A stretch of 23,213 bases of DNA, taken from positions 1 through 23,213 of the IMG/VR virus record IMGVR_UViG_3300017752_000175; one strand, written 5' to 3'. Every line of letters begins with the position of its first letter. Positions within the stretch are counted from its first letter, which is position 1. The notes under the pieces are model-generated. The model had not been told where the DNA came from. It did no database searches and saw only the letters and a list, made by a program, of their open reading frames with translations. Positions 600 to 22,227 of the stretch are shown in pieces. The DNA comes from a virus. The translations under genes and the position numbers were made by a program.

Positions 600-607
600 A
601 AAAGTGC

Positions 608-636
608 TTGCAAACATTCCCGCGCTGTGCTATAGT
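608..636 (+). promoter_or_regulatory. Promoter P1 (TTGCAA-N17-TATAGT, extended -10)
   Basis: The -35 TTGCAA is at 608-613, the spacer is 17 bp with an ATTC word and TGTGC next to the -10, and the -10 TATAGT is at 631-636. Transcription would begin near 643. It belongs to a family of nine near-identical promoters in this window. Unlike most of them it has a leader of about 54 nt before the ATG at 697; the last half of that leader is rich in A and C and lacks a Shine-Dalgarno sequence. Confidence 0.8.
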
Positions 637-696
637 CTTTCTCGTGAATGCTGGGTGTTCCGGCTACCACTTAATAAACACTACCAACAATACAAT

Positions 697-1692
697 ATGG
701 CAAAAAAGAAACAGATTATTCCCGATGGGACTAAGGTTAAGTTCATTAAATACGCAGAGGGTATGCCCGAAGGCGATTTAGAAGCGGGGGCTATGCTTAC
801 TGTTACAGGCTACGACCCAGAGGAAGACCTTTATAATGTAGAGGGTAAGGATGGGATTGAAGACTCTTTAGATTCTGAAGAGTTTGAGGTTCTAAAGGAA
901 AAGCCAAAAGCTGAAGAGAAGTCGGCAGAAGACTTAGAGTCCGAAGCAGAAGTTTTAGAGGATGAGGCAAAAGTCTTAGAGGAGGAAGCAGATGAGTTGC
1001 TGGAAAGCGTTGTTCCTAAGTTTAAGAAGACCGCATCCATTACTGCTGCTTTGAAGGAGCACAAAGGAGATGCCCTTGATGCAGCTTATGATTACGCTGA
1101 GCGTAAGGAGAAGACGGTCTGGGTGTTAGGAGGTATCTTGGCCTTTATTAAGCGTAATAATCTTCACTCTGAAGTTGTAGAAGAGAATGACGAAGGCATT
1201 GAGGTTCCTGTTTACGGATCAGACCTTACGGGGTTTAATCAGTATGTTAAGGACGAGCTAGGTTTAGCCCCTAGGACTGCTGATTACTACGTTAATATCT
1301 ACGAGTGCTTCTCGCAGATTACTACTGAGTCTGCTATTGCTAAGGTAGGGTGGACTAAGCTAAGAGAGCTTATCCCCCTTAAAGAGCATCTTACTAAGGA
1401 TAACGTAGGTGATTGGCTTAAGAAGGCTAAGGATCATACTGCGGTCGAGCTTCACGATTATGTTACCGAGGAGTTGGTCAGCAATGATACTGAAGGGTCG
1501 GTGCATGGCTCTCGTCAGACTGCTAAGGTGGAGACTTTCCATCTAGCTGCTCCTGAGGATATGGCTACTAATTGGCGCAAGGCGTTTGATACTGCTAGGG
1601 AGGTTATCGGTGCTGAGGCTACCGAGTCTGCCTGTATGGATCATATAATTACGGAGTGGATTGCAGTTCACAACGCTCCAGAGGAAGGGTAG
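697..1692 (+). CDS. KOW-like/coiled-coil phage protein, possible DNA-binding accessory factor
   Basis: The 331-aa product has three visible parts. Residues about 8-65 resemble a small KOW- or SH3-like beta barrel (a GTKVKFI start and a glycine-rich turn). Residues about 70-105 are a Glu-rich, probably coiled-coil linker. Residues about 170-265 form a helical region with the pattern LTGFNQYVKDELGL followed by APRTADYYVNIY and GWTKLRELIPL, as seen in phage and plasmid proteins with DUF3102-like helix-turn-helix segments. The family match is from memory and tentative. I reject the longer frame from 586 because it runs through the promoter at 608-636. The gene is followed by a strong terminator at 1712, so it is probably a monocistronic unit. 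Confidence 0.8.
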   Translation: MAKKKQIIPDGTKVKFIKYAEGMPEGDLEAGAMLTVTGYDPEEDLYNVEGKDGIEDSLDSEEFEVLKEKPKAEEKSAEDLESEAEVLEDEAKVLEEEADELLESVVPKFKKTASITAALKEHKGDALDAAYDYAERKEKTVWVLGGILAFIKRNNLHSEVVEENDEGIEVPVYGSDLTGFNQYVKDELGLAPRTADYYVNIYECFSQITTESAIAKVGWTKLRELIPLKEHLTKDNVGDWLKKAKDHTAVELHDYVTEELVSNDTEGSVHGSRQTAKVETFHLAAPEDMATNWRKAFDTAREVIGAEATESACMDHIITEWIAVHNAPEEG

Positions 1693-1711
1693 TTAATTTA
1701 AGCTGGACAAG

Positions 1712-1752
1712 AACCCAGCCCCTGCTGTCTTATACAAACGGGGCTGGGTTTT
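1712..1752 (+). terminator. Rho-independent terminator after the KOW-like gene
   Basis: AACCCAGCCCC (1712-1722) pairs perfectly with GGGGCTGGGTT (1740-1750), an 11-bp GC-rich stem with a 17-nt loop. The T-run covers 1749-1752. It ends only 6 nt before the rnhA ATG and no clear promoter lies between, so it may also act as an attenuator for rnhA. Confidence 0.85.
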
Positions 1753-1758
1753 ATAATT

Positions 1759-2298
1759 ATGAGCGACTTTATAGATGCTGATGATCCAAATACCGTAGTA
1801 GTATATACTGACGGGTCTTGTTACCCTAATCCTTCGGGACAAGGAGGGTGGGCGTTTTACGTTACATACTTAGGTAAGCAAGCCGTTCGTTACGGTAGTT
1901 TTGATGATGCTACTAATAACATGATGGAGTTGTTAGCTATCGTTAGGTCGCTTGAGTTTATTCCTTCCGGACCCTCGTATACTAATCCCCTGCTTATCTT
2001 TACTGATTCTAAATACGCTTTAAATGCCCTAACTGATTGGGTTGATGCTTGGAAGATCTCAGGGTGGAGGACATCTAATGGATCTGAAGTTAAGAACAGA
2101 GAACTTATTGAGCTTGGCGAGAAGTTAATTCACACGCACTCAGAATACAGATTGTTTCAACTTAGATGGGTTCCGGGTCATTCTGGAATCCCTGAGAATG
2201 AGCTTGTAGACCGTGCAGCTAATAACGCTAGAACACAACAACATACTAATTGGTCGCCTAAAAGTGACTGCAAAACTATCCCTGATGCCACTTATTAA
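1759..2298 (+). CDS. rnhA: Ribonuclease HI
   Basis: The 179-aa protein is a complete type I RNase H, which cuts RNA in RNA-DNA hybrids; in phages it typically removes replication primers. The four acidic catalytic residues are visible: D18 in YTDGS, E57 in NNMMEL, D83 in FTDSKYA and D151 in ELVDRAAN. The mobile-loop His is in VPGHSG (H141). The basic handle is replaced by a WKISGWRTSNG segment typical of many bacterial enzymes. The length is normal, with a C-terminal tail of about 25 residues. There is no Shine-Dalgarno sequence before the ATG and the gene sits just after a terminator, so expression may depend on readthrough. The 3' end overlaps the next gene by 14 nt. Confidence 0.95.
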   Translation: MSDFIDADDPNTVVVYTDGSCYPNPSGQGGWAFYVTYLGKQAVRYGSFDDATNNMMELLAIVRSLEFIPSGPSYTNPLLIFTDSKYALNALTDWVDAWKISGWRTSNGSEVKNRELIELGEKLIHTHSEYRLFQLRWVPGHSGIPENELVDRAANNARTQQHTNWSPKSDCKTIPDATY

Positions 2299-3808
2299 TT
2301 CACCTATAGAAGGAAAAGAAATTCACGAGCTTGGAGTTGAGGTAAACTCTCCTGCTGATTGCCCTAAAATGCACATGACTAGGGCTAACCTTAACATTTA
2401 TTTCTCCTTAGTTATCCCGCTTATCTATGGCCGTAGAGACATTATGCCTATTATATGGGCATGGTCTAAAGCGGCGGCAGAGCTACACATTGAGGCGTGG
2501 GCTAAAGAGGACCCAGATTATCTACAGCCAGATATGGAGTGGGCTGTTATGTTTTGTCAAAGGCTTCAAGATATATGCATAGACAATAAGATTTCAGCGG
2601 TCCTGTCTACTAAGTATGGTGGAGAGCCTGATATTAACATTCCTCATATTATGTCTCAATGCCTACGGATAGGCAAAAGCGAGTGTAATGGGTATGACGA
2701 TGAGAATGGTGGTGATGCTCTACAATACATAATTAGTCTTTTAGATTTACCAGAAGATCATCGTAAGACTATTGATTGGGTGTCTCATCAGTGTATGTCA
2801 GGATCTCTTATAGGAGCGTCTGGTTGGAGTGCTGCTAATATTAAGGACGAGCTTGGCGATGATAAGGTAGCTTCTACAGTTATACTAGCATCTCAGACAA
2901 CATTGAGTTCTTTGATAGGACCTGAGTTTATCCACTTACCTTCTAAAGCAATGTGGGCATTTCAGAAGATGGAGGACCTAAATAATTACAGCATGGAGGT
3001 AGTATGGGATTGCTGCTTTAACTCTATGATGAATGGCTACAAGCCTGTAAATTTAGAGGAGGGTCCTGAGTATAGCGATCCTTTTGAACGATCTCAGCAT
3101 TGGAGAAACGGCAACATTGATGATGAGTTGCAGGTTATTAGAGATGAGTGTTCTAACAGGACTTGGCAGCAGTCTGTTGATCTTGTAGTTACAGACTCTA
3201 GTATCGGTGATCCATATAAAGATATTGAGGATTATTTAGCTAGGTCGTGGGCTTTAGCTAGAGACAGGGAGCGCAATGGGCTTTACCAGCCGGTGTCTTT
3301 TATGAGTAAGGACTCTTTTGAATGGCTTATAAAGAATGGCAGAGTAAAGCTTAGGGATGATTTTACAGAAGAGAGCCTTATGCGTTTCTCAGATGACCCA
3401 TTTTACGCTAACGAGGTAGCTATGTCTCGCTTATGGGGGGAAGACTTTAAAGAGCTTACTACGGCCTTTTACGTTAACATTGATGACGATGAACAGATCT
3501 CAACCTTAAGTAAGATGTGTGGTCAAGTTAAGGTCTACTGGAAGCGTGAAGTATTAGGCTACTCTACGTTATCTTTAAACGATTCTCAGTTATCTCAGTT
3601 CTGTTTACCTGCTTCAAGAGATAATAGAGAGAAGTATATGGCTGTCTTAGCTGCATCTCAGGTAGGGACTATGACTGCTAATAATCCAGGGTTTATACCA
3701 GCGTTGGCTAGCAGGGTAGCCGGTAATCCTTGCTGGGTTAATTATGTAGAGCTTCAAGTGCATGAGGCTTTAACCATGAAGCACATTAGCTCAGTAGATG
3801 ATGGGTAA
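2285..3808 (+). CDS. Hypothetical phage protein, 507 aa
   Basis: This is a long uninterrupted frame with the same codon usage as its neighbours (many CTT, GAT, GCT). I do not recognise a family. It looks soluble and acidic, with no clear transmembrane stretch or signal peptide. Cysteines are scattered and form no CxxC pair. I chose the ATG at 2285 (MPLINSPIEG), which overlaps rnhA by 14 nt; the upstream start at 2213 would overlap by 86 nt and lies inside the rnhA reading frame. Its place directly after RNase HI hints at nucleic-acid metabolism, but no motif supports this. Confidence 0.75.
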   Translation: MPLINSPIEGKEIHELGVEVNSPADCPKMHMTRANLNIYFSLVIPLIYGRRDIMPIIWAWSKAAAELHIEAWAKEDPDYLQPDMEWAVMFCQRLQDICIDNKISAVLSTKYGGEPDINIPHIMSQCLRIGKSECNGYDDENGGDALQYIISLLDLPEDHRKTIDWVSHQCMSGSLIGASGWSAANIKDELGDDKVASTVILASQTTLSSLIGPEFIHLPSKAMWAFQKMEDLNNYSMEVVWDCCFNSMMNGYKPVNLEEGPEYSDPFERSQHWRNGNIDDELQVIRDECSNRTWQQSVDLVVTDSSIGDPYKDIEDYLARSWALARDRERNGLYQPVSFMSKDSFEWLIKNGRVKLRDDFTEESLMRFSDDPFYANEVAMSRLWGEDFKELTTAFYVNIDDDEQISTLSKMCGQVKVYWKREVLGYSTLSLNDSQLSQFCLPASRDNREKYMAVLAASQVGTMTANNPGFIPALASRVAGNPCWVNYVELQVHEALTMKHISSVDDG

Positions 3809-3816
3809 TTTACTTA

Positions 3817-4074
3817 ATGAATCTATACCGAGTAGTTAGCCGTTATTGGAAGATTAGTTACATCGTGGCTAGGTCAGGATTGCACGCCGTGCAAATAGCT
3901 ATTGAAATGGGGACTCATGTATCCGGTAAAAGGGTTAAGGCTGATCGCGTAGCTTATAGATCTCTAAGAGGGGAGTTGCTTACGTTTATGCTTAGGATGC
4001 CTGAGGCTGGCCGTGTCCTTATGCCTAATATTTTTAGAAAAGACTATATTTTACTTATTTATGAAGATGATTGA
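3817..4074 (+). CDS. Hypothetical protein, 85 aa
   Basis: This is a small basic protein starting 8 nt after the previous stop, with a run of aromatic and basic residues at the N-terminus (MNLYRVVSRYWK). No known domain is recognised. The gene contains a perfect copy of the palindromic element (3879-3895), read here in a different frame from the CxxCK reading. It overlaps the start of the following membrane-protein gene. Gene organisation, not protein content, is the main support. Confidence 0.6.
   Translation: MNLYRVVSRYWKISYIVARSGLHAVQIAIEMGTHVSGKRVKADRVAYRSLRGELLTFMLRMPEAGRVLMPNIFRKDYILLIYEDD
3879..3895 (+). repeat. 17-bp palindromic element, intragenic copy
   Basis: ATTGCACGCCGTGCAAA contains TTGCACG and CGTGCAA arms around a single C, a perfect 15-bp palindrome and the most symmetric of the eight copies. 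It lies inside the 85-aa gene. There the peptide reading is LHAVQI, so the CxxCK interpretation does not apply in the gene's own frame. In the other frame it reads CTPCK followed directly by a stop. Confidence 0.5.
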
Positions 4075-4687
4075 TGCTGAGCGTATTATAGCTCCCCACC
4101 TTGAGGAGAAGAAGTTTCATATTACTCAAACTTGGCCTGTAGGGGCTTGGGGAGCGGAAGCCAGTATTTTAGTGGGTTATATGTATTTAGTTATAGCTAG
4201 CCTTATTCCTGAGGTTCCTACAGGTGATTGGATCTTAGAGTTCCTTTATGGCTGGCTTATACTTATTAATGTTATCCTATTTGGCGTTATGATGGCTATG
4301 GGAGTAGGGTCTAAGCTTACTAAATCTTATTCACAGGAGTCTGAGTGGCTAGGGTTATCTAATATAAAAGCTGATAAAGATGGTGATCTTGGGGTTACTA
4401 CTTTGCTTAAAGAGCGTGCGTCTCAGCTTGAAAAGAAATACCATAGTTCTGGCTGGATGCTTAGCATTATGCCTGTAGTTCAGAAGAGTCAGCTTGAGGC
4501 TATGAAGTATGGCATAGCAGCAATACTTTTATCTCAGTGCTTGGCTTCTATTATTGATGCTAGCCATTGGGTGTTAGCCGTTACTGCCGTTCTTACTAGG
4601 TCTTGTATCTTAATTCAGATGAGCACCATAAGAGAGTATGCGCTTAAGTCTTGGGAATCGTTGCATACGTCAAACTTGTGGGATTGA
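4061..4687 (+). CDS. Integral membrane protein, about four transmembrane segments
   Basis: The 208-aa product has hydrophobic stretches near residues 33-50, 57-80, 148-165 and 167-187, with a long soluble loop (about 85-145) between the second and third. I recognise no family; a role in lysis, superinfection exclusion or membrane remodelling is possible but unsupported. ATG 4061 overlaps the preceding gene by 14 nt, and ATG 4067 is an equally good start. The track start further upstream (4013) would overlap far more and is disfavoured. The gene ends just before promoter P2. Confidence 0.65.
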   Translation: MKMIDAERIIAPHLEEKKFHITQTWPVGAWGAEASILVGYMYLVIASLIPEVPTGDWILEFLYGWLILINVILFGVMMAMGVGSKLTKSYSQESEWLGLSNIKADKDGDLGVTTLLKERASQLEKKYHSSGWMLSIMPVVQKSQLEAMKYGIAAILLSQCLASIIDASHWVLAVTAVLTRSCILIQMSTIREYALKSWESLHTSNLWD

Positions 4688-4708
4688 ATTATCCAAGTAA
4701 ATTATTAC

Positions 4709-4737
4709 TTGCAAACATTCCCATTCTGTGCTATACT
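4709..4737 (+). promoter_or_regulatory. Promoter P2 (TTGCAA-N17-TATACT)
   Basis: The -35 TTGCAA is at 4709-4714 and the -10 TATACT at 4732-4737, with a 17-bp spacer holding ATTC and TGTGC. A T/A-rich block (AAATTATTAC) precedes it. The predicted start is near 4744, exactly where a structured leader begins. It is almost identical to P3 at 5603. Confidence 0.85.
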
Positions 4738-4743
4738 AATACT

Positions 4744-4858
4744 AACAGGCTTACTAGGAGGAGCTTGTTTCTGATTCCCTTGGTAGGGGAATTGGTCTGT
4801 TGGCTAAGCCCTCCTACTCGGTTTGGTATCCGAGTAGGAGGCACGTCTGTATTAGATA
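4744..4858 (+). ncRNA. Structured 5' leader with three stem-loops (candidate cis-regulatory RNA)
   Basis: Three hairpins are visible in the 115 nt between the P2 start and the ATG. First, AACAGGCT (4744-4751) pairs with AGCTTGTT (4762-4769), including one G-U pair; the loop holds TAGGAGG. Second, ATTCCC (4774-4779) pairs with GGGAAT (4787-4792). Third, CCTCCTACTCGG (4810-4821) pairs perfectly with CCGAGTAGGAGG (4830-4841), 12 bp with an 8-nt loop. The first loop is complementary to the 5' arm of the third stem, so two exclusive folds are possible. No T-run follows the third stem, so it is not a standard terminator. I do not recognise a known riboswitch class. Confidence 0.6.
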
Positions 4859-5578
4859 ATGAATATAAATGATCTTACACCAGAGGATGCTAAGAAGCTT
4901 GAGTATCTTATGATTAAAGCTGCTACTAATATTAAGCTGCTTAAGAGAGAAGACGTAGAGTTTTTATCAAAGTTTTCTTTAAGTAACGCTGAGGGTAGAG
5001 AGTGCGGAGATTGCATTTACTGTTGTCAGGCTCCGGCTATCGAAGAGTCTAGTATACTGGCTGATGAGCCTATTGATTTTGATCCTAAGCCAGCTTGCGT
5101 TGAGTGTTATTACGCAGTGGAGGGTGTAGGCTGCACTGTATACAGTAACAGACCTACAGTATGTAAATCTTATAAATGCCTTTACCTTTTAGGGCTTACT
5201 GATGTAAGGCCAGATAAAGGCGGTGTGGCGTGGTCTTTTCAGCCTTGGACAGAAGGCCCTCCTAGCAGTATGCCGCTGATGGTTACTGGTCATTGCTTGG
5301 ACGTAGTTAAGGCTCTTTTGAATCCTAAGGTTATGGATGATATTAATAGTATCTTTAACCTAGGCATCGAAGTCATAGCTATGAGAGACGATAAGATGGC
5401 TACTCAGCTTAAGCCGGGTAAGGGTAATTGTATTATAGCTAAGATTGATCCTAAAGATTCTATGAAGGTTAAAATTCTTGAAGGGTCTGAGTGTGATGCG
5501 CCTTGGCACATAGAGCTTTTAAAGGAAGAAGATACTACTGCTAAGTATCCTAACTGGAGTTACGGTTCTTTGAATTAG
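4859..5578 (+). CDS. YkgJ-like CxxCxxCC zinc/iron-cluster protein
   Basis: The 239-aa protein shows the signature of the YkgJ-type zinc- or iron-chelating family: C49-x2-C52-x2-C55-C56 (CGDCIYCC), then C80 and C83, C92, and a final SNRPTVCKSYKC block (C102 and C107) with the family's RP dipeptide. The metal is not certain; family members are annotated as zinc- or iron-cluster proteins and their biochemical role is poorly known. The C-terminal 100 residues are unassigned. It is the first gene after promoter P2 and has the only long structured leader in the window, so its expression is likely controlled at RNA level. No Shine-Dalgarno sequence is seen just before the ATG. Confidence 0.8.
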   Translation: MNINDLTPEDAKKLEYLMIKAATNIKLLKREDVEFLSKFSLSNAEGRECGDCIYCCQAPAIEESSILADEPIDFDPKPACVECYYAVEGVGCTVYSNRPTVCKSYKCLYLLGLTDVRPDKGGVAWSFQPWTEGPPSSMPLMVTGHCLDVVKALLNPKVMDDINSIFNLGIEVIAMRDDKMATQLKPGKGNCIIAKIDPKDSMKVKILEGSECDAPWHIELLKEEDTTAKYPNWSYGSLN

Positions 5579-5602
5579 CATCTTACGTAAGTAAATTATT
5601 AC

Positions 5603-5631
5603 TTGCAAACATTCTCATTCTGTGCTATACT
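5603..5631 (+). promoter_or_regulatory. Promoter P3 (TTGCAA-N17-TATACT), leaderless
   Basis: The -35 TTGCAA is at 5603-5608 and the -10 TATACT at 5626-5631. The ATG of the next gene is at 5637, only 5 nt after the -10, so the predicted start site coincides with the start codon. The mRNA should be leaderless. Confidence 0.85.
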
Positions 5632-5636
5632 AAATC

Positions 5637-6089
5637 ATGCAAGAACAAAAGCGACCGTTTCGTGTGCCTATGGTTTTTTATTCTATGACAGCACGTAAGC
5701 CTGACGCAGATAAGATTATTATGTTTATCGCTACACGCTGTAGTGACAGGTATAGGGTTGAGAATCAAAGTAAGCCAGCAGTCAGTAAGGTTGATTGGCT
5801 GACTGTAATAGGGAAGCGCGATGCAGGTAAGCCTTCGCCTTATCGTAGGCTAAATGCTTCTTGGGATGATCTTAATTCCTTTAACGAGTGGCAGGTTAAG
5901 TCATGGGGCTACCTACCTATAGAATACATGGAGCGTATGATCGCCGGAGAGAATCACGAGACTTTACAATCAGAAGCTGAGGATGAGTGGGTAGGTCGCT
6001 CTATTAAGAAAGCTAAGCGTAGGAGGCGACCACAGGCTCATAAGAAAAGTTATGTTATGCGCTCTAAAAGATCTATAGACCTAACATGA
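5637..6089 (+). CDS. Hypothetical protein, 150 aa, basic C-terminus
   Basis: The first gene of a chain running to about 8440. The product has no domain I recognise. The last 30 residues are strongly basic (KKAKRRRRPQAHKKS), which suggests nucleic-acid binding. Translation must start at or next to the 5' end of the transcript, because promoter P3 ends 5 nt upstream. The stop overlaps the next ATG as ATGA, so downstream translation is probably coupled. Confidence 0.7.
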   Translation: MQEQKRPFRVPMVFYSMTARKPDADKIIMFIATRCSDRYRVENQSKPAVSKVDWLTVIGKRDAGKPSPYRRLNASWDDLNSFNEWQVKSWGYLPIEYMERMIAGENHETLQSEAEDEWVGRSIKKAKRRRRPQAHKKSYVMRSKRSIDLT

Positions 6090-6550
6090 ACATATTCGCA
6101 GTAGACATACGACCGCAGCGTGCAGCAAAAGCACTTGGAGACAAGCACGTAAATAAGATGATTCTAGAGACAGCACAGATGATGTGCTCAGCCTACCCCA
6201 AAGGGGACGCTCCTTATCTTAGGGCTTACTACAATCACCCCTGCACTATATGGGCTAGGAAATGCTTAAAGAATTACGAGTGGCTTTATCACCACGGCAT
6301 GGCTTTAGGTAAGGAAAAGGTTTATCGGTTCGGAGGCAGTCATGCTAGTATTGATGTAATTCAATGGTGCTGGGATAATATCTCTATCGACATTATTCCT
6401 GAGTCTTCGTCAATGACACCGTTTGCCCAAGCTATGCCAGAAGAGTTTTATCACGAAGATTCTATAGTTGCTTATAGATCTTATTACCGCTCTGCTAAAT
6501 CACATCTGCATAAGTGGACTAAGAGACAAGCCCCTGCTTGGTTAGATTGA
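6086..6550 (+). CDS. Conserved phage protein of the DKHVxKMIxE type
   Basis: The 154-aa product carries a pattern I recall from many phage genomes: an MNIFAVD start, DKHVNKMILETAQMM near residue 19, a YNHPCTIWARK block near 49, NYEWLYHHGMALGKE near 63, and a YRSYYRSAK...W tail. The several invariant His, Asp, Trp and Tyr residues suggest an enzyme, but the function is unknown to me. The length matches the family. It overlaps the previous gene by 4 nt (ATGA) and is followed 6 nt later by the next gene. Confidence 0.75.
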   Translation: MNIFAVDIRPQRAAKALGDKHVNKMILETAQMMCSAYPKGDAPYLRAYYNHPCTIWARKCLKNYEWLYHHGMALGKEKVYRFGGSHASIDVIQWCWDNISIDIIPESSSMTPFAQAMPEEFYHEDSIVAYRSYYRSAKSHLHKWTKRQAPAWLD

Positions 6551-6556
6551 GGCGAT

Positions 6557-6841: not shown

Positions 6842-6842
6842 G

Positions 6843-8440: not shown

Positions 8441-8458
8441 TTTCTTTTTATTTATTAC

Positions 8459-8486
8459 TTGCAAACGTTCGGACCTGTGCTACCTT
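8459..8486 (+). promoter_or_regulatory. Promoter P4 (TTGCAA-N16-TACCTT), leaderless
   Basis: The -35 TTGCAA is at 8459-8464, the spacer is 16 bp with TTCGG and TGTGC, and a weak -10 TACCTT is at 8481-8486. It is preceded by TTTATTTATTAC. The ATG at 8495 is 8 nt after the -10, so the transcript would be leaderless or carry 1-3 nt. Confidence 0.75.
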
Positions 8487-8494
8487 GTAATGTT

Positions 8495-8755: not shown

Positions 8756-8777
8756 CCCTAGCCCTTATATTTACATT

Positions 8778-9825: not shown

Positions 9826-9830
9826 AATCC

Positions 9831-15914: not shown

Positions 15915-16477
15915 ATAAAAAAGTTTTACCTATAACTGACATTAAGCCTTACGAAAAGAATCCCCGTAAGGCTTCTGCTGACGCTATTAATGCCGTAAAG
16001 AAATCTATCGAACGGTTTGGATACAACGTGCCAATAGTGGTTGACGAAAACAACGTAGTCCTTACAGGCCACACAAGGTTGTTAGCTATAAAGGAACTTA
16101 AGTGGGAAAAAGTTACGGTTTTAGTAGCGTCAGATCTTACAGAAGAGCAAGCCAGAGAGTTCCGTATTATTGATAATAGAATCTCTGAGATGTCTGTATG
16201 GGATCACGATCTTCTCAAGGATGAACTTCGTGCAGTAGCAGCAGCCGGAGAAATGGCTGATTGGTATGATGAAAGTGAGTTAGAGAATATTATGGGGTCG
16301 TTAGATGAGGCTGGAGCCTCTGCGATAGCTCCCACGCAAGAACAGATTGATAAGAAGCTTGAGGCTAACGAGAATCATTATAAGAACAGAGATGAAGAGG
16401 CTCATTCACGCATGGTAGAGATTAAGTGCGGTCATTGTTCAGAAAAATTTTACGTTGATTCAAGACTTGGCGATTAA
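15911..16477 (+). CDS. ParB-like protein with C-terminal zinc knuckle, paralogue 1
   Basis: The 188-aa product has a ParB/Srx N-terminal domain: ITDIKPYEKNPRK at 8-20, IERFGYNVPIVVD near 33-45, LTGHTRLLA at 51-59 and EFRIIDNRISE near 83-93. A short C-terminal tail carries KCGHCSEKF (C173, C176), a probable half zinc ribbon. Phage proteins of this type often sit just before the terminase and are annotated as ParB nuclease or as methyltransferase/terminase-associated. The catalytic role is uncertain. The start overlaps the upstream stop as ATGA, and the stop abuts the next ATG. Confidence 0.82.
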   Translation: MNKKVLPITDIKPYEKNPRKASADAINAVKKSIERFGYNVPIVVDENNVVLTGHTRLLAIKELKWEKVTVLVASDLTEEQAREFRIIDNRISEMSVWDHDLLKDELRAVAAAGEMADWYDESELENIMGSLDEAGASAIAPTQEQIDKKLEANENHYKNRDEEAHSRMVEIKCGHCSEKFYVDSRLGD

Positions 16478-17137
16478 ATGCATATAACGATCACTAATTC
16501 TAAAACATTACCCCACCATTCAATGAACATTGTAGAAGTTAGCATTAATGACATCCGACCTTACTGGCGTAATCCAAGGAAAAACGATGATACGGTAGCC
16601 GCTCTTAAGGACTCTATACAGAAATATGGCTACACAGTGCCTATCGTAGTTGACCAAGACGGAGTTATTTTGGCTGGTCACGCTAGGTATAGGGCCTTGG
16701 TTCAGCTTGGATACGAGAAGGTAAGGATTGTCCAAGTTGAACTAGATGAAGAGAAGGCTAGGCAGTTTCGGATCGCAGACAATAAGGCTGGAGAGTTTAC
16801 TGAGTGGGACATGGATACTCTTGAAAAAGAGCTTGAGGATCTCGGTGCTGGGTCAATGGAGAATATTGCTGGATTCTTTCAATCGGAGGAGTGGAAAGAC
16901 ATTATGGATCTAAGCTCTTTTAACGATGCACAAGATGATACTGACGAAGGTGAGGAGCCGCTCGATCAGCAAGTCCCCACGCCTGGGTCCTCTCAAGGTT
17001 CTGACGGAGAAACAGAAGATACGGTGATCGATCTTCTTTGCCCACATTGTCTTGAGGAGAATGTATTTACCATAGAAGAGTTTAGAGAGATTGTAGCTAA
17101 AGCTAGATCTGTGGCTAATGCTGAGGATGATAGCTAA
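16478..17137 (+). CDS. ParB-like protein with C-terminal zinc knuckle, paralogue 2
   Basis: The 219-aa product repeats the architecture of its neighbour: NDIRPYWRNPRK at 24-35, IQKYGYTVPIVVDQDG near 47-62, LAGHARYRAL near 65-74, FRIADNKAGEFTEWD, and a C-terminal LLCPHCLEENVF (C188, C191). The pair arose by tandem duplication, with the zinc-knuckle tail kept in both. An internal ATG at 16523 (MNIVEVSIND) matches the start of paralogue 1 better and could be the true start; I keep 16478 because it abuts the previous stop. The acidic region about 145-185 is an added linker absent from paralogue 1. Confidence 0.8.
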   Translation: MHITITNSKTLPHHSMNIVEVSINDIRPYWRNPRKNDDTVAALKDSIQKYGYTVPIVVDQDGVILAGHARYRALVQLGYEKVRIVQVELDEEKARQFRIADNKAGEFTEWDMDTLEKELEDLGAGSMENIAGFFQSEEWKDIMDLSSFNDAQDDTDEGEEPLDQQVPTPGSSQGSDGETEDTVIDLLCPHCLEENVFTIEEFREIVAKARSVANAEDDS

Positions 17138-17155
17138 GCAAAGATCTTAGCGTTG

Positions 17156-17206
17156 ATGGTTTGCCATTCGTGCAAATGTAACCTTACGTATTATGGGAGT
17201 AACTAA
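17156..17206 (+). CDS. Putative CxxCKC micro-ORF (16 codons), palindrome-associated
   Basis: ATG 17156 opens MVCHSCKCNLTYYGSN, stopping at TAA 17204-17206 and overlapping the start of the small terminase gene in another frame. Three Cys and a His in the first eight residues could bind metal. The frame starts one base before palindrome copy 17160-17176. Like the frame at 561 it may be only a by-product of the DNA element. Confidence 0.25.
   Translation: MVCHSCKCNLTYYGSN
17160..17176 (+). repeat. 17-bp palindromic element, upstream of terminase genes
   Basis: TTTGCCATTCGTGCAAA keeps the TTTGC and CGTGCAAA arms. It occupies the 55-nt gap between the ParB-like and small terminase genes, the only sizeable gap in that part of the operon, and ends 16 nt before the ATG at 17193. 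A repressor or RNA-processing role at the entry to the packaging genes is possible. Confidence 0.55.
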
Positions 17207-17795
17207 AGCAGTCAGGGCTAGAAGACGGAAGAGAGCTATTGAAACCCAAGAGCGCGTTGCTACTAGGGTTGATGTTATGGGTAACACCGTTCCTTTAGAT
17301 CAAGGAGGTAGACCAGATCGACGTTTTGATGACAAGGTAGTTAAGAAGGTATGCGATGCGCTTATCGCAGGTAATACTTATACTAACGCTGCACGCTTAG
17401 CGGGTATATCTAAGGATGCACTTTATCGCTGGAGAAAGGAAGGTGAGAAAGCTCCAGAAGGCTGTAAAGCTAAGGAAGTTTATGACCGTATTGAATCCGC
17501 TTGTGCAGAGGCTGAACATAGAAATGTTATGGTTATACAAAAAGCTGCTGGCTCTGGAAAGTCGTGGCAAGCGGCGGCATGGTTCCTAGAAAGGCGTAAT
17601 CCTCAAGAGTTCGGTAGGCGCGAGAGAGTAGATGTGGGAAATGCAGATGGCGGCGTATTTCTTACTGGATCTGTAGACGAGGGAACTTTAAACGACGAGG
17701 AGAAGTTAGCTGCTTTAAGAGGAGTATTAGCTACAAAGCCAGATTTGAAGTTAGCTATTACCCAAGATGAAGGAGATGGCGATGCCGGAAGCTGA
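17193..17795 (+). CDS. terS: Terminase small subunit (HTH DNA-recognition protein)
   Basis: The 200-aa product has a basic N-terminus (VRARRRKRA), a helix-turn-helix with the homeodomain-like pattern NAARLAGISKDALYRWRKEG at 65-84, a helical EAEHRNVMVIQKAA and the phrase WQAAAWFLERRNPQEFGRRER at 125-145. This phrase is typical of small terminase or phage HTH proteins that lie before TerL. It would recognise the phage packaging site and load the large subunit. The stop overlaps the TerL start region by up to 29 nt. The GSGKS at 120-124 resembles a P-loop but is probably coincidental. Confidence 0.78.
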   Translation: MGVTKAVRARRRKRAIETQERVATRVDVMGNTVPLDQGGRPDRRFDDKVVKKVCDALIAGNTYTNAARLAGISKDALYRWRKEGEKAPEGCKAKEVYDRIESACAEAEHRNVMVIQKAAGSGKSWQAAAWFLERRNPQEFGRRERVDVGNADGGVFLTGSVDEGTLNDEEKLAALRGVLATKPDLKLAITQDEGDGDAGS

Positions 17796-19260
17796 ACCAC
17801 AAGACCAGCAAGTTACTTTTACTCAAGAGGAACACTTAGCTGTGATGGAGGCCCTTGTTGAGGCTGCTAGGGAAGATCTTCTTTCGTTTTTACATATAAT
17901 ACATCCTCAAGTTGAGTCACGTAATTATACGATAGGTGATTTACATAAATACTTGGCTACCATAGTAACTGAAGTCTTGTCTGGAGATAGAGGACCTAAC
18001 CAAACTATTTCAGTTCCACCTCAGCATGGTAAGAGCCGTATGTTATGCGTTCGTGCAGTTGCTTGGCTTATTGGAAAGTTCCCAGGCTTACACATAGGGA
18101 TGACAGGATTCTCTGGAGCATTGTTAGCTGACTTCATGAAAGAAGTTATCTCGCTAACTGAGAGTTCAATATATCAGCAGATATTCCCTGATGTTCATCC
18201 CGTATGGGGTCAAAACACTAGATTCGCTAAGGTATTCTCAAATGGCACTTCTGTTCAGATAAGGTCTGCCGGATCTAAACTTACTGGACGAAGGGTTGAT
18301 TGGCTTATCATTGATGATGCTCATGCTGGACGTAAGGAAGCAGAGTCGCCGTCCTCAAGGAGAAATATTATTCAGTGGTTTTACGGTGATTGTATTAGCC
18401 GTATTTCTAAAGATGCTAAAATCTTCATTATAGGAACTAGGTGGCATCCTGACGATCTTATAGGACACCTTATATCAGAAGAGTCTAAGCAAAGACTGCA
18501 AGATGCAGGTCAGGCTGATAGAATATTTCAAGTTACTAATTTACCGGCAATCTGTAACTCAGAAGATGATCCTTTAGGCAGAGAGATAGGAGATGCTTTA
18601 TTTCCAGAGGAAAGACCTATTTCATTCTTAGAAGGTCAAAAAGCTATGATTCCCTCTTATGAGTGGGAATCTCAATACATGGGAAGACCCGTAGCTGCAT
18701 CGTCAGGTCAGGTTGATGTATCTAAAATAAATTACACTACCCTTGAAGAAGTCCCTAAAGACGTTGAGTGGGTTCGTGGATGGGATTTAGCGTTGACTGA
18801 GAAGCAATCTTCTGACTACACGGCAGGGGCTTTATGCGCTATTGATCGAGAGAAGAGATTTTACATTATTGATGTAACTAAAGGTCAGTTAGCTTGGGCT
18901 AGAATGAGAGCAAGAATATTAGAGACTAGCCGTGTAGATAGAGAAGCTTACAGAGTTTTTAGGATAGGCGTAGAAGGAGTGGGCGGCTTTGATGCAGTTT
19001 ATCAAGATGTTAGGGAGCAGTTGATGGGTGATGTAAAAGTGGAGAAGAAAAATCCACCAAGAGGAGGAAAGTTACTGCGTGCTCAGCCGTGGATTAACTT
19101 GGTAGAGGCAGGTAAAGTATTTATTGTCCGTGGAGCATGGAATTTAGACTTTACTACTGAGCTTGAGCTTTTCCCTGAGGCTTTACATGACGATCAGGTT
19201 GATGCCGTATCAGTAGCTTATGAGTTACTTCAGTCTAAGCCTAGATTGCTTATAGCGTGA
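17767..19260 (+). CDS. terL: Terminase large subunit (ATPase-nuclease)
   Basis: The 497-aa protein has both TerL domains. The ATPase carries Walker A PPQHGKS at 84-90 and Walker B WLIIDDAH at 179-186, plus a coupling motif around IIGTRWHPDDL. The RNase H-like nuclease shows an opening Asp in VRGWDLAL, a middle acidic segment at IGVEGVGGFDAVYQD and a closing HDDQVDAVS near the end. It moves DNA into the prohead and cuts the concatemer. The length is normal. ATG 17767 gives the longest frame, but AAGGAG at 17770-17775 lies 6 nt before another ATG at 17782, which may be the true start. No portal gene follows; the next gene is a 51-aa protein behind its own promoter. Confidence 0.93.
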   Translation: MKEMAMPEAEPQDQQVTFTQEEHLAVMEALVEAAREDLLSFLHIIHPQVESRNYTIGDLHKYLATIVTEVLSGDRGPNQTISVPPQHGKSRMLCVRAVAWLIGKFPGLHIGMTGFSGALLADFMKEVISLTESSIYQQIFPDVHPVWGQNTRFAKVFSNGTSVQIRSAGSKLTGRRVDWLIIDDAHAGRKEAESPSSRRNIIQWFYGDCISRISKDAKIFIIGTRWHPDDLIGHLISEESKQRLQDAGQADRIFQVTNLPAICNSEDDPLGREIGDALFPEERPISFLEGQKAMIPSYEWESQYMGRPVAASSGQVDVSKINYTTLEEVPKDVEWVRGWDLALTEKQSSDYTAGALCAIDREKRFYIIDVTKGQLAWARMRARILETSRVDREAYRVFRIGVEGVGGFDAVYQDVREQLMGDVKVEKKNPPRGGKLLRAQPWINLVEAGKVFIVRGAWNLDFTTELELFPEALHDDQVDAVSVAYELLQSKPRLLIA

Positions 19261-19268
19261 TTTATTGC

Positions 19269-19296
19269 TTGCATACATTCGGATATGTGCTAGATT
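19269..19296 (+). promoter_or_regulatory. Promoter P6 (TTGCAT-N16-TAGATT), leaderless
   Basis: The -35 TTGCAT is at 19269-19274 and the -10 TAGATT at 19291-19296, with TTCGG and TGTGC in the spacer and TTTATTG upstream. The upstream end directly follows the terL stop. The ATG at 19305 is 8 nt after the -10. It is the most diverged of the TTGCAA family. Confidence 0.7.
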
Positions 19297-19304
19297 GGTA
19301 TGTT

Positions 19305-19460
19305 ATGATTGAACTGAGTTACCAACTGAAAGACAGCAACGGCGTTGCCGTTGGAGAAACCCGAGTGATACCGTTTTACGGTAACCGCCGAAAGGCTGAG
19401 GCTTACCGAGACAAGATTCTGAAGAAATTCCCTAAATCACTAATCGCTTGGAGTGAGTAA
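19305..19460 (+). CDS. Hypothetical protein, 51 aa
   Basis: A small protein with a beta-rich first half (MIELSYQLKDSNGVAVGE) and a basic helical second half (NRRKAEAYRDKILKKF). No family is recognised. The open frame extends upstream to 19257 but only through the promoter, so the ATG at 19305 is preferred and would be nearly at the 5' end of the transcript. It is followed 2 nt later by the next gene. Confidence 0.55.
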   Translation: MIELSYQLKDSNGVAVGETRVIPFYGNRRKAEAYRDKILKKFPKSLIAWSE

Positions 19461-19462
19461 TT

Positions 19463-19717
19463 ATGGATCAGATTATTGAACAAAGGATTGAGTATTTGCA
19501 GCGTAAAATATCTCAGCTAGTTAAGCATAAGCTTAAGATGAGAGAAACGTTTTATGACAACGGAGTTATCTTATCCGGTATGTTAGAGCAGTATGATGAT
19601 ACTATGACTAGCATAGATAATGAGATCTCTCAGGTTAATGCTGCGGTTGATGAGTTAACGTTTATACTTAAGGTAATTATGTATGATGATTTTAAGAAAT
19701 CTGGAGAGCAGACTTAG
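19463..19717 (+). CDS. Hypothetical coiled-coil protein, 84 aa
   Basis: The sequence is predominantly helical, with heptad-like hydrophobic spacing across residues 5-75 (YLQRKISQLVKHKLKM and an EISQVNAAVDELTFILK segment), suggesting a coiled-coil dimer. It is probably co-transcribed with the 51-aa gene. No function can be read from it. The spacer after it (19718-19803) is A/T-rich; I see no convincing promoter or terminator there. Confidence 0.6.
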   Translation: MDQIIEQRIEYLQRKISQLVKHKLKMRETFYDNGVILSGMLEQYDDTMTSIDNEISQVNAAVDELTFILKVIMYDDFKKSGEQT

Positions 19718-19803
19718 TGTCTTTACTTTATATTGACTTTATACACATTTAGTGTAATCGTTGTATTTGAGGACTGCGATTTATTACCCCAAATACCTTA
19801 TAT

Positions 19804-20706
19804 ATGAGCGATGATCTTATACCTCAAGAAAAGCCCCTGTTTAGTAGCGCATGGGAGGGAGACTCCGCAAGGATAGATGTTCCGGTAGTTAGAAACGGAG
19901 ATTGGAATTGGTGGGTTTTATTATGGGCTGACAGGCATTGGGACAACCCTGACTCAGATCATAAGATGATGAATGAGCAGTTGCGTCAGGCTAGGCAAAT
20001 GAATGCCGCTATCATTGACGTAGGTGATTTCTTTTGCGCTATGCAAGGCAAGTATGACCCTAGATCAAGCAAGTCAGCACTAAGACCAGAGCACACATCA
20101 GGAGATTACTTGGATGCTCTTGTAAACACAGCTACCGACTATCTTAGCCCTTACGCTGACCTGTTTGCTTGGATGTGTCCGGGGAACCATGAGAAGTCTA
20201 TTCACGACCGCAGGGAAACTAACCTTACTGAAAGGCTCGTATCTAATCTGAGGGCAAAGGGAAGCCAGTGTATCCGACACCGATACTCAGGCTTTACTAG
20301 GATCTGCTTTAAAGATCATAAGACTCTGGACCAGAAGAAAGGCTACTCTCAGACGGTGGTTATGTGGCATACTCACGGTTACGGCGGCGGTGGACCCGTT
20401 ACTAAGGATACCATTCAAGCTAATAGACAGGGTGTGTATTTAGACAACGTGGACATAGTGGTTAGTGGGCATACTCACGACTCTTGGATATGGCCGCAGT
20501 CTACCGTGAGGGTAAGTCAGCAAGGTAACCTCGTTCATAGCGAGAGGCTGCACTTAAAGATACCGTCAGCTAAGAACAAGTTCGGCAAAGACTCGTGGGA
20601 AGACCTTAGGGGTATGCCACCTAAGCCCTTAGGTTGTTTATGGCTAAAGTTTGCTTGGGATAGTTCTAATCATAAAGTTACGTATGACGTAAGACGCTCC
20701 TTATAA
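19804..20706 (+). CDS. Calcineurin-like metallophosphoesterase
   Basis: The 300-aa protein has the metallophosphoesterase motifs in order: WADRHWD at 41-47 (the D-x-H metal ligands), DVGDFF at 72-77, CPGNHEKS at 125-132, WHTHGY near 187, and VVSGHTHDS near 218. It would use two metal ions to hydrolyse phosphoester bonds in nucleic acid, nucleotides or protein. Phage members often work in DNA repair or recombination, but there is no SbcC-like partner here. The GC content is somewhat higher than in its immediate neighbours. It is terminated by a strong hairpin at 20732. Confidence 0.9.
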   Translation: MSDDLIPQEKPLFSSAWEGDSARIDVPVVRNGDWNWWVLLWADRHWDNPDSDHKMMNEQLRQARQMNAAIIDVGDFFCAMQGKYDPRSSKSALRPEHTSGDYLDALVNTATDYLSPYADLFAWMCPGNHEKSIHDRRETNLTERLVSNLRAKGSQCIRHRYSGFTRICFKDHKTLDQKKGYSQTVVMWHTHGYGGGGPVTKDTIQANRQGVYLDNVDIVVSGHTHDSWIWPQSTVRVSQQGNLVHSERLHLKIPSAKNKFGKDSWEDLRGMPPKPLGCLWLKFAWDSSNHKVTYDVRRSL

Positions 20707-20731
20707 TTTATAGGCCGAGATGCCTAACTAG

Positions 20732-20773
20732 AACTGGCTTATCTTCTTTACTGGAGGTGAGCCAGTTTTTTTT
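20732..20773 (+). terminator. Rho-independent terminator after the phosphoesterase
   Basis: AACTGGCTTA (20732-20741) pairs with TGAGCCAGTT (20758-20767), a 10-bp stem with one G-T pair, followed by eight T residues (20766-20773). A smaller hairpin (TAGGC at 20711-20715 with GCCTA at 20722-20726) precedes it. Confidence 0.9.
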
Positions 20774-20794
20774 ATGTCTAATATCATTTATTGC

Positions 20795-20822
20795 TTGCAA
20801 ATAATCATTCCTGAGCTATAGT
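20795..20822 (+). promoter_or_regulatory. Promoter P7 (TTGCAA-N16-TATAGT), leaderless
   Basis: The -35 TTGCAA is at 20795-20800 and the -10 TATAGT at 20817-20822; the spacer has ATAATCATTCC and TGAGC. It follows a terminator and precedes the ATG at 20832 by 9 nt. With P8 and P9 it forms a near-identical trio. Confidence 0.82.
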
Positions 20823-20831
20823 GATCTCGTT

Positions 20832-21359
20832 ATGAATGACATCGCATCCCAACATCCTAAGTTTATTAAAAATCAAGTTAACTCAAACATTATGCGTGAA
20901 GCATGGCGCATACGACGCGAAGCCGCAGCATCGGTAGGTGCAGAGCGCGTTACGTTTATTGCATGGGGTCCATGCCTTGAACGGGCGCGAGGTAAGCGCA
21001 CACCGTTACGGAATGCGTTCGGTTCTATGCTTAAAGCTGGTAAGGGCGTTAAAATTGATCTGTCTATCCTTGATCCGACAATGCCGGTTAACCTTGACGC
21101 TGAGACGATAAGTGAGCTTAGCGGAGTTGAATTATCTTACGTAAGGCCGCACTTGGCGTATCTGGAGAATACAGGAGTGCTTAACAATCATTATGGATTT
21201 ATCTCAGTTCCGGCAGAGCGGCGACCTTACTCTAACTGTCTTGATGATTGGGCAGCGTGGGAGAATAACGACCGTAAGCGTAAGCAGCGTGAAGTAGATT
21301 TTCAGAGCTTACTTCGTGAGAAGGCTGAGCAGCACGTTGAGGTGTCGCTTTATGCTTAG
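20832..21359 (+). CDS. Hypothetical protein, 175 aa
   Basis: A predicted soluble protein with a basic N-terminal half (RIRREAAASVGAER and RARGKRTPLRNAF) and an LSGVELSYVRPHLAYLENTG segment near 95-114 that looks like a winged-helix or HTH. The C-terminus is helical and charged (NNDRKRKQREVDF). It may be a small DNA-binding regulator, but the HTH is only suggestive. Expression should be from leaderless promoter P7. Base composition is slightly higher in GC than in the genes before 19260. Confidence 0.62.
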   Translation: MNDIASQHPKFIKNQVNSNIMREAWRIRREAAASVGAERVTFIAWGPCLERARGKRTPLRNAFGSMLKAGKGVKIDLSILDPTMPVNLDAETISELSGVELSYVRPHLAYLENTGVLNNHYGFISVPAERRPYSNCLDDWAAWENNDRKRKQREVDFQSLLREKAEQHVEVSLYA

Positions 21360-21362
21360 GCT

Positions 21363-21418
21363 AAAAAGTTTAACTTTTAGATATTTATTGCTTGCAAATA
21401 ATCATTCCTGAGCTATGG
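21363..21418 (+). repeat. Promoter module repeat A (palindrome plus P8)
   Basis: A 56-bp stretch nearly identical to 21781-21836. It holds a palindrome AAAAGTTTAACTTTT (21364-21378) with 7-bp arms, then TATTTATTG and the P8 -35 and spacer. The two copies lie 418 bp apart and look like a duplicated promoter cassette. Confidence 0.75.
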
Positions 21419-21419
21419 T
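21392..21419 (+). promoter_or_regulatory. Promoter P8 (TTGCAA-N16-TATGGT), leaderless
   Basis: The -35 TTGCAA is at 21392-21397 and the -10 TATGGT at 21414-21419, with TGAGC beside it. The ATG at 21429 is 9 nt after the -10. The -10 is the weakest of the trio. Confidence 0.75.
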
Positions 21420-21428
21420 TATATTGTT

Positions 21429-21764
21429 ATGAGAGATTACACTGCACACGATACAATTAGTCACTGCCTTACCGTAGAGGAAGATGGATGGACTATCGAA
21501 GCCGAAGCTGATATTGACATCTGCATTATTCACGAGGGTATGGTTCGTTACTACCGTGATGGATCTGGCTACCCTGGATTTCACATGGTTGAAGTTTCTG
21601 ACGTTCGTTCAATTACGGTAGAGGGTGCATCGCACTCTAATCGACTAATTGATTGGATTGTTAAGAATGCCGATGATTTGCCACGGTGGATTCGTAATTG
21701 GGTTAATCGTAAGATGGAGGCGATTGTGGAACCTGCGGTATGGGAGGCTGAAATAAATGCCTGA
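21429..21764 (+). CDS. Hypothetical protein, 111 aa
   Basis: A small, mostly acidic protein with a beta-rich first half (CLTVEEDGWTIEAEADIDI) and a helical second half with RLIDWIVKNADDLPRWIRNW. I recognise no family. The gene lies in a row of short genes with one leaderless promoter each, which is typical of phage early host-takeover genes; that role is inference. Its stop overlaps a 13-codon frame at 21757 carrying the degenerate CxxCK reading. Confidence 0.6.
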   Translation: MRDYTAHDTISHCLTVEEDGWTIEAEADIDICIIHEGMVRYYRDGSGYPGFHMVEVSDVRSITVEGASHSNRLIDWIVKNADDLPRWIRNWVNRKMEAIVEPAVWEAEINA

Positions 21765-21798
21765 TATTTGCACACCGTTCAAAAAGTTTAACTTTTAG
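21757..21798 (+). CDS. Degenerate CxxCK micro-ORF (13 codons)
   Basis: ATG 21757 overlaps the previous stop and opens MPDICTPFKKFNF, ending at TAG 21796-21798. Compared with the other copies the second Cys is Phe (TGC to TTC). This change also breaks the palindrome. It is either a decayed micro-ORF or a chance frame on a weakened DNA element. Confidence 0.15.
   Translation: MPDICTPFKKFNF
21767..21783 (+). repeat. 17-bp palindromic element, copy upstream of P9
   Basis: TTTGCACACCGTTCAAA differs from the consensus by one base in the right arm (GTTCAAA). The P9 -35 begins 26 bp after it, the same spacing as between copy 565-581 and P1. Confidence 0.5.
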
Positions 21799-21836
21799 AT
21801 ATTTATTGCTTGCAAATAATCATTCTTGAGCTATAG
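21781..21836 (+). repeat. Promoter module repeat B (palindrome plus P9)
   Basis: This is the second copy of the 56-bp module, with the palindrome AAAAGTTTAACTTTT at 21782-21796. It differs from copy A mainly near the -10 and by ATTCTTGAGC in place of ATTCCTGAGC. Confidence 0.75.
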
Positions 21837-21837
21837 T
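21810..21837 (+). promoter_or_regulatory. Promoter P9 (TTGCAA-N16-TATAGT), leaderless
   Basis: The -35 TTGCAA is at 21810-21815 and the -10 TATAGT at 21832-21837. The ATG at 21847 is 9 nt after the -10, as in P7 and P8. A palindromic element lies 26 bp upstream of the -35. Confidence 0.82.
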
Positions 21838-21846
21838 GATCTTGTT

Positions 21847-22227
21847 ATGACTGAAAACACTTTACCAAACCAGCCAGCCCGCCTTTACTCCGAAGAACGC
21901 CGTGAGCTTAACAGACTGTTCGCAGATGATGCAGTCCTTAACGGTAACGACCGTGAGGGCAGCTTCGGAAGGGCATTGAACCGGCTTAATGAGCATCTGC
22001 ACTCTTGGGGCTTTGAGTTGGACATGGTTTCAGCAGATTTACTGCTAGGGCATCGAGGGTCTAACCTTCTTACGTTCCGCAGACGCAATCACACTAGCGA
22101 CCCGTTCCACGAGAATCCGATGGTCGATAATGCTAGAGTTACATTTTCCTGGGAGTGCATGAACGCTCAGCCGTCAACGACGATAAGAGATTCAAGCCGC
22201 TTGGAGACGCTGGCTTACATAGGGTAA
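21847..22227 (+). CDS. Hypothetical protein, 126 aa
   Basis: A charged soluble protein with a helical N-terminal half (EERRELNRLFADD and a FGRALNRLNEHLHSWGF segment) and a short beta-rich C-terminal half (SNLLTFRRRN). No family is recognised. The reading frame extends upstream to 21826 but only through the -10 of P9, so ATG 21847 is preferred. It is the first gene of a short unit that continues with the 105-aa gene. Confidence 0.62.
   Translation: MTENTLPNQPARLYSEERRELNRLFADDAVLNGNDREGSFGRALNRLNEHLHSWGFELDMVSADLLLGHRGSNLLTFRRRNHTSDPFHENPMVDNARVTFSWECMNAQPSTTIRDSSRLETLAYIG

Follow-up and report, generated by a model that had tools for sequence, protein, structure and literature searches.

A 23,213-nt stretch of viral DNA (IMG/VR record IMGVR_UViG_3300017752_000175, positions 1 to 23,213; hereafter the window) carries nine copies of a long, promoter-like block, most of which run almost directly into a start codon. 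The block belongs to a family with 19 strong copies in a longer phage record, phage A, and a divergent relative, phage B, has a separate family of its own. We put the probability at roughly 80% that these are strong early or middle promoters that are read by a host sigma-70-type polymerase and give transcripts with leaders of 0-3 nt. The sequence evidence given below strongly supports a set of promoters in which a leaderless or near-leaderless start is built in.

A preliminary description of the window had listed nine plus-strand sites, and all nine are present where it placed them (Table 1), with the spacers it reported (17 bp at three sites and 16 bp at the remaining six) and with an ATG 5-9 nt past the -10 at seven. 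Its wording of the block needs small corrections: the upstream TTTATT or ATTATT is absent at 608, where AAAGTG stands instead, the TGTGC or TGAGC word is replaced by TGTGA at 9798, and the site at 19269 has CTTGCATA. Patterns for the 16-bp and the 17-bp class, allowed up to three mismatches on both strands, occur in exactly six and exactly three places in the window, and these places are exactly the nine sites; the corresponding means in dinucleotide-preserving shuffles are 0.01 and 0.00. Because both patterns were derived from the nine sites themselves, this result shows that the repeat is not due to chance and does not show that the hexamers function as such.

The window matches part of a 74,020-bp IMG/VR record, which is phage A, at 99.99% identity, and a second record of 14,299 bp (D) is 99.97% identical to another part of A. 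Phage A is a tailed phage with genes for terminase, portal, major head protein, tape measure, DnaB-type helicase, RecA, DNA ligase, and RNase H; gene calling gave 100 genes, all on one strand. Its matches in phage collections are distant. Protein searches with the terminase, portal, tape measure, and capsid returned records of which nearly all are below 60% identity (four of the 1049 portal matches reach 60-80%), and two Vibrio phages show 68-71% identity over 6-7% of a 4.4 kb stretch.

Scanning the whole of A with a profile of two blocks, derived from the nine window sites, gave 19 strong copies, every one on the coding strand, with scores from 23 to 40. The weakest of them scores 23.3 and the next match 13.0, which is shuffle level; three matches at that level (11.7, 13.0, and 11.2) were dropped. 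The preliminary description had named a lack of motif enrichment at gene starts elsewhere in the phage as one refutation of its proposal, and such enrichment was found. The three promoter classes that it distinguished merge into a continuum once all 19 copies are aligned and are usable as description only. The -35 is TTGCAA at 18 of the 19 sites and TTGCAT at one, and a -10 near TATAAT, with the form TAnnnT at a spacing of 16 or 17 bp, is found at all 19. An extended -10 of the TGn type, with TG at -15/-14, was counted by eye in the alignment at 10 of the 19 sites, all of the TGTG type; the others comprise eight TGAG sites and one TGCGC site, and at the TGAGC sites the TG sits two bases further upstream than the canonical TGn. 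Conservation extends beyond the hexamers to ATTTATTG upstream and to ATTC within the spacer.

An ATG with an open frame of 40 codons or more is located 5-9 nt past the -10 at 13 of the 19 sites in A, compared with a mean of 0.52 and a maximum of 4 in 2000 rounds of a shifted-site control. The sole purine 6-7 nt past the -10 in all 13, as judged by eye, is either the A of the ATG (four sites of the 5-6 nt class) or the G of a GTT-ATG (nine sites of the 8-9 nt class, five of them in the window), and both distance classes therefore agree on a single start distance. From this spacing we infer leaders of 0 nt in the 5-6 nt class and 3 nt in the 8-9 nt class; at the nine GTTATG-type sites, a 3-nt leader beginning at the G appears to be as likely as a true zero leader. 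It is conceivable, although we lean to the other side, that the transcripts are better described as short-leadered, with their first base being the G of GTT-ATG or a base before it and with ribosomes starting in an ordinary manner that is free of Shine-Dalgarno (SD) pairing. The occurrence of GTTATG at nine of the 13 sites, with its G at 6-7 nt as the likeliest start, speaks for such transcripts. However, the A of the ATG itself occupies that distance in the 5-6 nt class of A and in most of B, and a leader of 0-3 nt fits the usual sense of leaderless, given as fewer than 8 nt in one paper (PMC10783764).

Phage B is a 70,709-bp record, a circularly permuted relative of A whose matching proteins are 24-65% identical. 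Its promoter family was first found by a motif search independent of A's sequence and has the consensus TTTTTAnTTGACAAAGGTTTTAnnCTGTGnTATAnT, i.e., TTGACAAAGGTTTTA..TGTGnTATAGT. We count 29 sites in B (24 of TTGACAAA and five of TTGCAAAG), a number that depends on the patterns TTGACAAA[GT] and TTGCAAAG, the latter taken from A and relatives; a site with TTGCAAAT at about 51.7 kb was left out of the count. The -35 is TTGACA at 24 of the 29 sites, and conservation beyond the hexamers is seen in TTTTTA and AAGGTTTTA. By the same test as in A, 23 of the 29 sites are leaderless (21 TTGACAAA and two TTGCAAAG), against a mean of 0.24 and a maximum of 3 in the shifted-site control. A leaderless promoter is kept on both sides in three ortholog pairs (A15011/B62079, A42290/B19926, and A43817/B17876), and the proteins of the second pair align at 43% identity from residue 1 to residue 1, which supports that start codon. 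Built-in leaderless starts, as the preliminary description had proposed them, are thus upheld at the level of sequence in the wider form of a leaderless or near-leaderless family, by the counts in both phages, their control means of 0.5 and 0.2, and the three pairs. A separate observation in B is a doubled start codon, ATGATG, which opens 13 of the 23 leaderless genes (e.g., 13439, 14438, 15232, and 16019 in reversed-record coordinates); among all called gene starts it occurs at 12 of 102 in B and at one of 100 in A.

The term phage-wide, also from the preliminary description, does not hold. The family copies in A span 4.9 to 49.6 kb, and none of the 19 lies past that point, in the final 24 kb with the portal, head, and tail genes; likewise, none of the 29 counted sites in B falls within 25.6-51.7 kb, where the portal, capsid, and tape-measure genes are. 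The stretch from 43.7 to 49.6 kb, within a small-gene cluster, holds nine of the 19 copies in A, and the first of these follows a terminator-like hairpin. In A and B alike, the promoters cluster before small genes between terminase and ligase and are absent from the portal-head-tail modules. This clustering before small genes suggests early timing.

A repeated block could also consist of recently copied DNA, i.e., mobile promoter cassettes that are kept by duplication and have no shared regulatory role. Two copies have 81 bp in common at 90% identity, and in one relative (G008, below) the repeat extends into coding sequence in several copies. We nevertheless consider this origin improbable: the leaderless proteins are mutually dissimilar within A and within B (E 1e-3), most flanks diverge while the promoter block persists (by eye), and the arrangement is kept in the three ortholog pairs despite the differing consensus of A and B.

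SD words (GGAG, GAGG, or AGGA) show no genome-wide excess over an upstream control in either phage, with 12 versus 14 of 100 genes in A and 15 versus 15 of 101 in B. A capsid-profile search gave 40 related loci, of which ten larger records were read whole. For these relatives, the -35 word was chosen in each case from over-represented words, and a copy was taken as leaderless if an ATG opening at least 30 codons lay 4-10 nt past the best -10; G009, G011, G012, G014, and G015 were left out of the tally. Repeats of the TTGCAAAG or TTTACAAA type recur in G005, G007, G008, and G016, with leaderless copies at 6/9 in G005, 1/5 in G007, 8/21 in G008, and 2/10 in G016. When a good -10 score is also required, these become 4/4, 1/4, 1/9, and 2/8, respectively; G008 is the weaker case because its -10 is mostly CATCCT-like. 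G013 has clear SD use (31 of 59 genes versus 14 in a control stretch), and its seven TTGACAAAAG promoters are leaderless in 0/7 cases by either count.

Three further observations concern repeats in these relatives. Several copies of the promoter repeat of G008 reach into coding sequence (ATGTCCAATCCATCC, M-S-N-P-S); their form is ATGTCCAA(T/G) followed by CATCC-like letters, e.g., at 59300, 64737, and 74496. G014 has the multicopy word GAACCCGA, with 23 of 31 copies intergenic, and G016 has AAAACTTT, with 21 of 28 copies intergenic.

With regard to the polymerase, the sigma-70 region 4 model (PF04545) finds no domain in A or B (region 2 and single-subunit RNA polymerase models were not searched, and comparison with Pfam or PHROGs covered 47 of A's 100 called proteins), which leaves the host polymerase as the simplest reader. 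One strict form of the motif, searched in one genome per species, gave 40 exact matches, compared with about 4 from a back-of-envelope estimate. The matches are scattered over phyla, more than half of them being Clostridia by title, which fits a generic sigma-70 promoter, and no host clade emerged from this search. Profile searches in sampled Verrucomicrobiota found the portal in 9/387 (best 2.6e-24 at about 25% identity) and the capsid in 1/387 (1.5e-4). The capsid profile also gave 1/285, with two matches and a best value of 6.8e-27, in the phylum of an Omnitrophota genome, and 0/386 and 0/395 in the phyla of a Gastranaerophilales and a Flavobacterium genome, respectively; such empty results are uninformative without a known positive. 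Upstream regions in the sampled Verrucomicrobiota contigs, those shorter than 9 kb being skipped, are mixed, and several have SD sequences. One genome, G032, had seemed to be TA-led (a type described below) on 14 genes and was rejected as such when 143 genes gave an SD enrichment of 27 versus 10; TA boxes in the same 143 genes stand at 16 versus 5 and are of uneven quality.

Taken as a mechanism, the proposal is a promoter that combines A/T-rich DNA on its upstream side, the -35 word TTGCAAA, a spacer conserved in its first half, a block with TG, and a -10 resembling TATA, and that the housekeeping polymerase of the host would read soon after phage entry. The RNA would start at the A of the ATG (4 of the 13 sites) or at the G of GTT-ATG, three bases earlier (9 of 13). 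Ribosomes that do not need SD pairing would then initiate no more than 3 nt from the 5' end, and many small genes would each be driven by a promoter of their own.

A second repeated element, the palindrome TTTGCACnnCGTGCAAA, has seven copies in the window (Table 1). There are 23 copies in the whole of A against a shuffle mean of 0.9, and a counterpart in B, TTTGAACnnCGTTCAAA, has 18 copies against 1.3 (up to three mismatches in both cases). The copies lie outside called genes in 17/23 (A) and 14/18 (B) cases and start 0-2 nt past a stop codon in 9/23 and 6/18. A palindrome is found no more than 130 bp upstream of a family promoter at six of the 19 promoters in A, where it ends 9-21 bp before the promoter block and is centered at -61, -70, -62, -69, -61, and -72; the centers before B promoters are -60, -60, -59, -51, and -92. 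In the window, the palindromes at 565, 9762, and 21767 have centers at about -70 (copy 1), -62 (copy 5), and -69 (copy 9). Helical phasing is seen among the ten centers that lie closer than -80 (P about 0.002 versus uniform positions), in a test that was picked after seeing the data. One reading is that the palindrome is the site of a dimeric regulator at class-I activator positions, as in CRP; another is that the palindromes form hairpins at mRNA 3' ends.

In a different account of the promoter block itself, the block serves in addition, or chiefly, as the target of a phage regulator. Operator and promoter would then overlap, the regulator would contact the conserved spacer words and the palindrome upstream, and the set would be a true regulon, the term used in the preliminary description. 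In line with this account, conservation goes beyond the hexamers in A and in B, and the block varies little within any one phage and differs from phage to phage. The A-type pattern, run over all of IMG/VR, matches A and D only, indicating that the exact consensus belongs to this phage, and the palindrome lies near -61 or -70 at six A promoters and near -60 at three in B. We regard a regulator of this kind as unlikely on balance: extra consensus is likewise a feature of T4 early promoters, which the host polymerase reads (PMC2988021), concerted change could arise by copying, as the two copies that share 81 bp would allow, and only the six A promoters noted above have the palindrome within reach upstream.

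Several observations weigh against leaderless promoters read by a host sigma-70-type polymerase. Six of the 19 sites in A are without an ATG at 5-9 nt, and three of these six have no start codon at all within 12 nt. At A 46571 there is an ATG directly past the -10 (45 codons) and a GTG at 6 nt (43 codons), at A 47649 a GTG at 7 nt (16 codons), and at A 23585 (608 in the window) a GTG at 7 nt that opens 45 codons and an ATG at 11 nt that opens eight. TTGCAA agrees with TTGACA at only four of six positions. A generic sigma-70 scan of window positions 3300-23213 gave no promoter excess (33 found versus 35.3 expected) and picked up five of the eight family sites in that range, so that the evidence rests on the long repeated block. 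AGGA alone exceeds the upstream control in A (8 versus 4) and in B (9 versus 3), although these counts are still below the coding control (11 in A and 17 in B). The contrast between SD use and leaderless layout depends on one clear SD-using relative, G013, and G005 is SD-enriched (9 of 37 versus 1) yet has six of nine promoters that look leaderless. The B-type pattern (TGTGnTATAnT followed at 4-9 nt by an ATG) is found in none of the records of 14 further relatives, and record C, a fragment of 18 kb whose terminase is 45% identical, holds zero copies. Lastly, of the five leaderless B genes that have a homolog in A, two are without the layout there: the homolog A5243 has a leadered family promoter, and A50066 has no family promoter.

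A more speculative extension, to which we give somewhat less than even odds, is that a wide clade of uncultivated tailed phages has fused promoter and translation start into one repeated unit. In this unit, transcription from a phage-specific sigma-70-type promoter would start at the start codon, and the promoter would take the place of the ribosome-binding site; the unit would have been copied before early genes, and its use would follow the SD use of the host. In a subset, the palindrome at about -61 or -71 would bring in an activator or repressor of the class-I type encoded by the phage.

Other features of the DNA stand apart from these questions. The hairpin immediately before copy 7 (Table 1) may separate the dense cluster of small genes from a unit upstream of it; overall, terminator-like sites show no excess (12 found versus 12.8 expected). 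The 121 nt between the -10 of copy 2 and its gene (window 4738-4858) contain several hairpins (-48.3 kcal/mol, z -3.6), and by eye a CUAGGAGG stretch there could pair alternatively with CCUCCUAC. This segment has no Rfam match, and no known RNA family is found anywhere in the window at the gathering threshold. Near the small-gene cluster, several hundred bases without a called gene (window 22836-23213) contain repeated gcggca words (by eye) and are a possible origin or control region. At A 5243-8048, an AAA ATPase gene and a DUF1257 gene lie close together, with a leadered family promoter before each.

Table 1. Predicted promoter copies and other repeated or structural features of the window. 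Distances are in nt past the -10.
Feature	Positions	Strand	Details
Promoter copy 1	600-636	+	TTGCAA 608-613, 17-bp spacer, TATAGT 631-636; leadered, ATG of next long open reading frame at 697
Promoter copy 2	4701-4737	+	TTGCAA 4709-4714, 17-bp spacer, TATACT 4732-4737; 121 nt from -10 to gene 4859
Promoter copy 3, predicted leaderless	5595-5639	+	-35 5603-5608, 17-bp spacer, -10 5626-5631, ATG 5637 (5 nt), 150 codons
Promoter copy 4, predicted near-leaderless	8451-8497	+	-35 8459-8464, -10 TACCTT 8481-8486, GTT-ATG 8495 (8 nt), 86 codons
Promoter copy 5, predicted leaderless	9790-9833	+	-35 9798-9803, -10 TATATT 9820-9825, ATG 9831 (5 nt); NlpC/P60 protein, N-terminus signal-peptide-like (by eye)
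Promoter copy 6, predicted near-leaderless	19261-19307	+	TTGCAT 19269-19274, -10 TAGATT 19291-19296, GTT-ATG 19305 (8 nt), 51 codons; B ortholog also leaderless, alignment from residue 1
Promoter copy 7, predicted near-leaderless	20787-20834	+	-35 20795-20800, -10 TATAGT 20817-20822, GTT-ATG 20832 (9 nt); ortholog in B leaderless too
Promoter copy 8, predicted near-leaderless	21384-21431	+	-35 21392-21397, -10 TATGGT 21414-21419, GTT-ATG 21429 (9 nt)
Promoter copy 9, predicted near-leaderless	21802-21849	+	-35 21810-21815, -10 TATAGT 21832-21837, GTT-ATG 21847 (9 nt)
Intrinsic-terminator-like hairpin and T-run	20730-20769	+	immediately before promoter copy 7
Palindrome TTTGCACnnCGTGCAAA, seven copies	565-581, 3879-3895, 9762-9778, 14286-14302, 17160-17176, 21767-21783, 22587-22603		

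The family can be set beside several known systems. Bacteriophage T4 uses Shine-Dalgarno leaders. Its early promoters combine UP, -35, TGn, and -10 elements and are read by the host sigma-70 polymerase (PMC2988021). They form a strong set and resemble the family of phage A in having more conserved sequence than sigma-70 needs, and they differ from it in their sequence; A has TTGCAA rather than TTGACA at -35, and its -10 stands directly before the ATG. In the TA-led genes of bacteria, a -10-like box lies roughly 10 bp ahead of the start codon, and an SD sequence is missing (Zheng et al. 2011, PMC3160421). A and B share both the box near the start codon and the absence of SD sequences; the difference is that TA-led genes are a gene-by-gene trait of host genomes, whereas here one promoter is repeated in a phage and a second version is found in a relative.

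The SAS and ESAS of cluster K mycobacteriophages are repeats located right before start codons, mostly in one orientation; about half of the SAS have an upstream inverted repeat, with a consensus that varies by subcluster (PMC3203893). The SAS word is GGGATAGGAGCCC, with an AGGAG that we read as ribosome-binding-like, whereas the block of phage A is promoter-like and SD-free, and the GGGATAGGAGCCC word is seen in none of the 19 aligned A sites (by eye). The late promoters of phiKZ have a TATG whose G is the start and which could overlap the start codon (PMC5312081), but they are read by a phage-encoded multisubunit polymerase and have no sigma-70-type -35. For the TTTGCAC palindromes, a possible parallel is offered by the stoperators of cluster A mycobacteriophages, which are repressor-binding repeats present in large numbers genome-wide; that repressor site is described as asymmetric, while the element in A is palindromic.

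Leaderless phage mRNA as such is not new, since work on phage AR9 describes leaderless transcripts as frequent among phages (PMC5312081), and hosts in which SD sequences are scarce include Bacteroidota, Prochlorococcus, and some Verrucomicrobia (PMC10783764). Among the papers listed in literature searches on leaderless phage transcripts, judged by their titles and the openings of their abstracts and with most subscription papers outside the collection searched, we saw no repeated leaderless promoter family of the present kind. In practice, the layout is also a cue for assigning start codons when phages lack SD sequences. If the proposed reading is correct, a divergent relative with its own version and an SD-using relative whose promoters are not leaderless make the link between host translation and phage promoters directly testable, and a set built as a single repeated unit of promoter plus start codon goes beyond the leaderless phage transcripts known so far.

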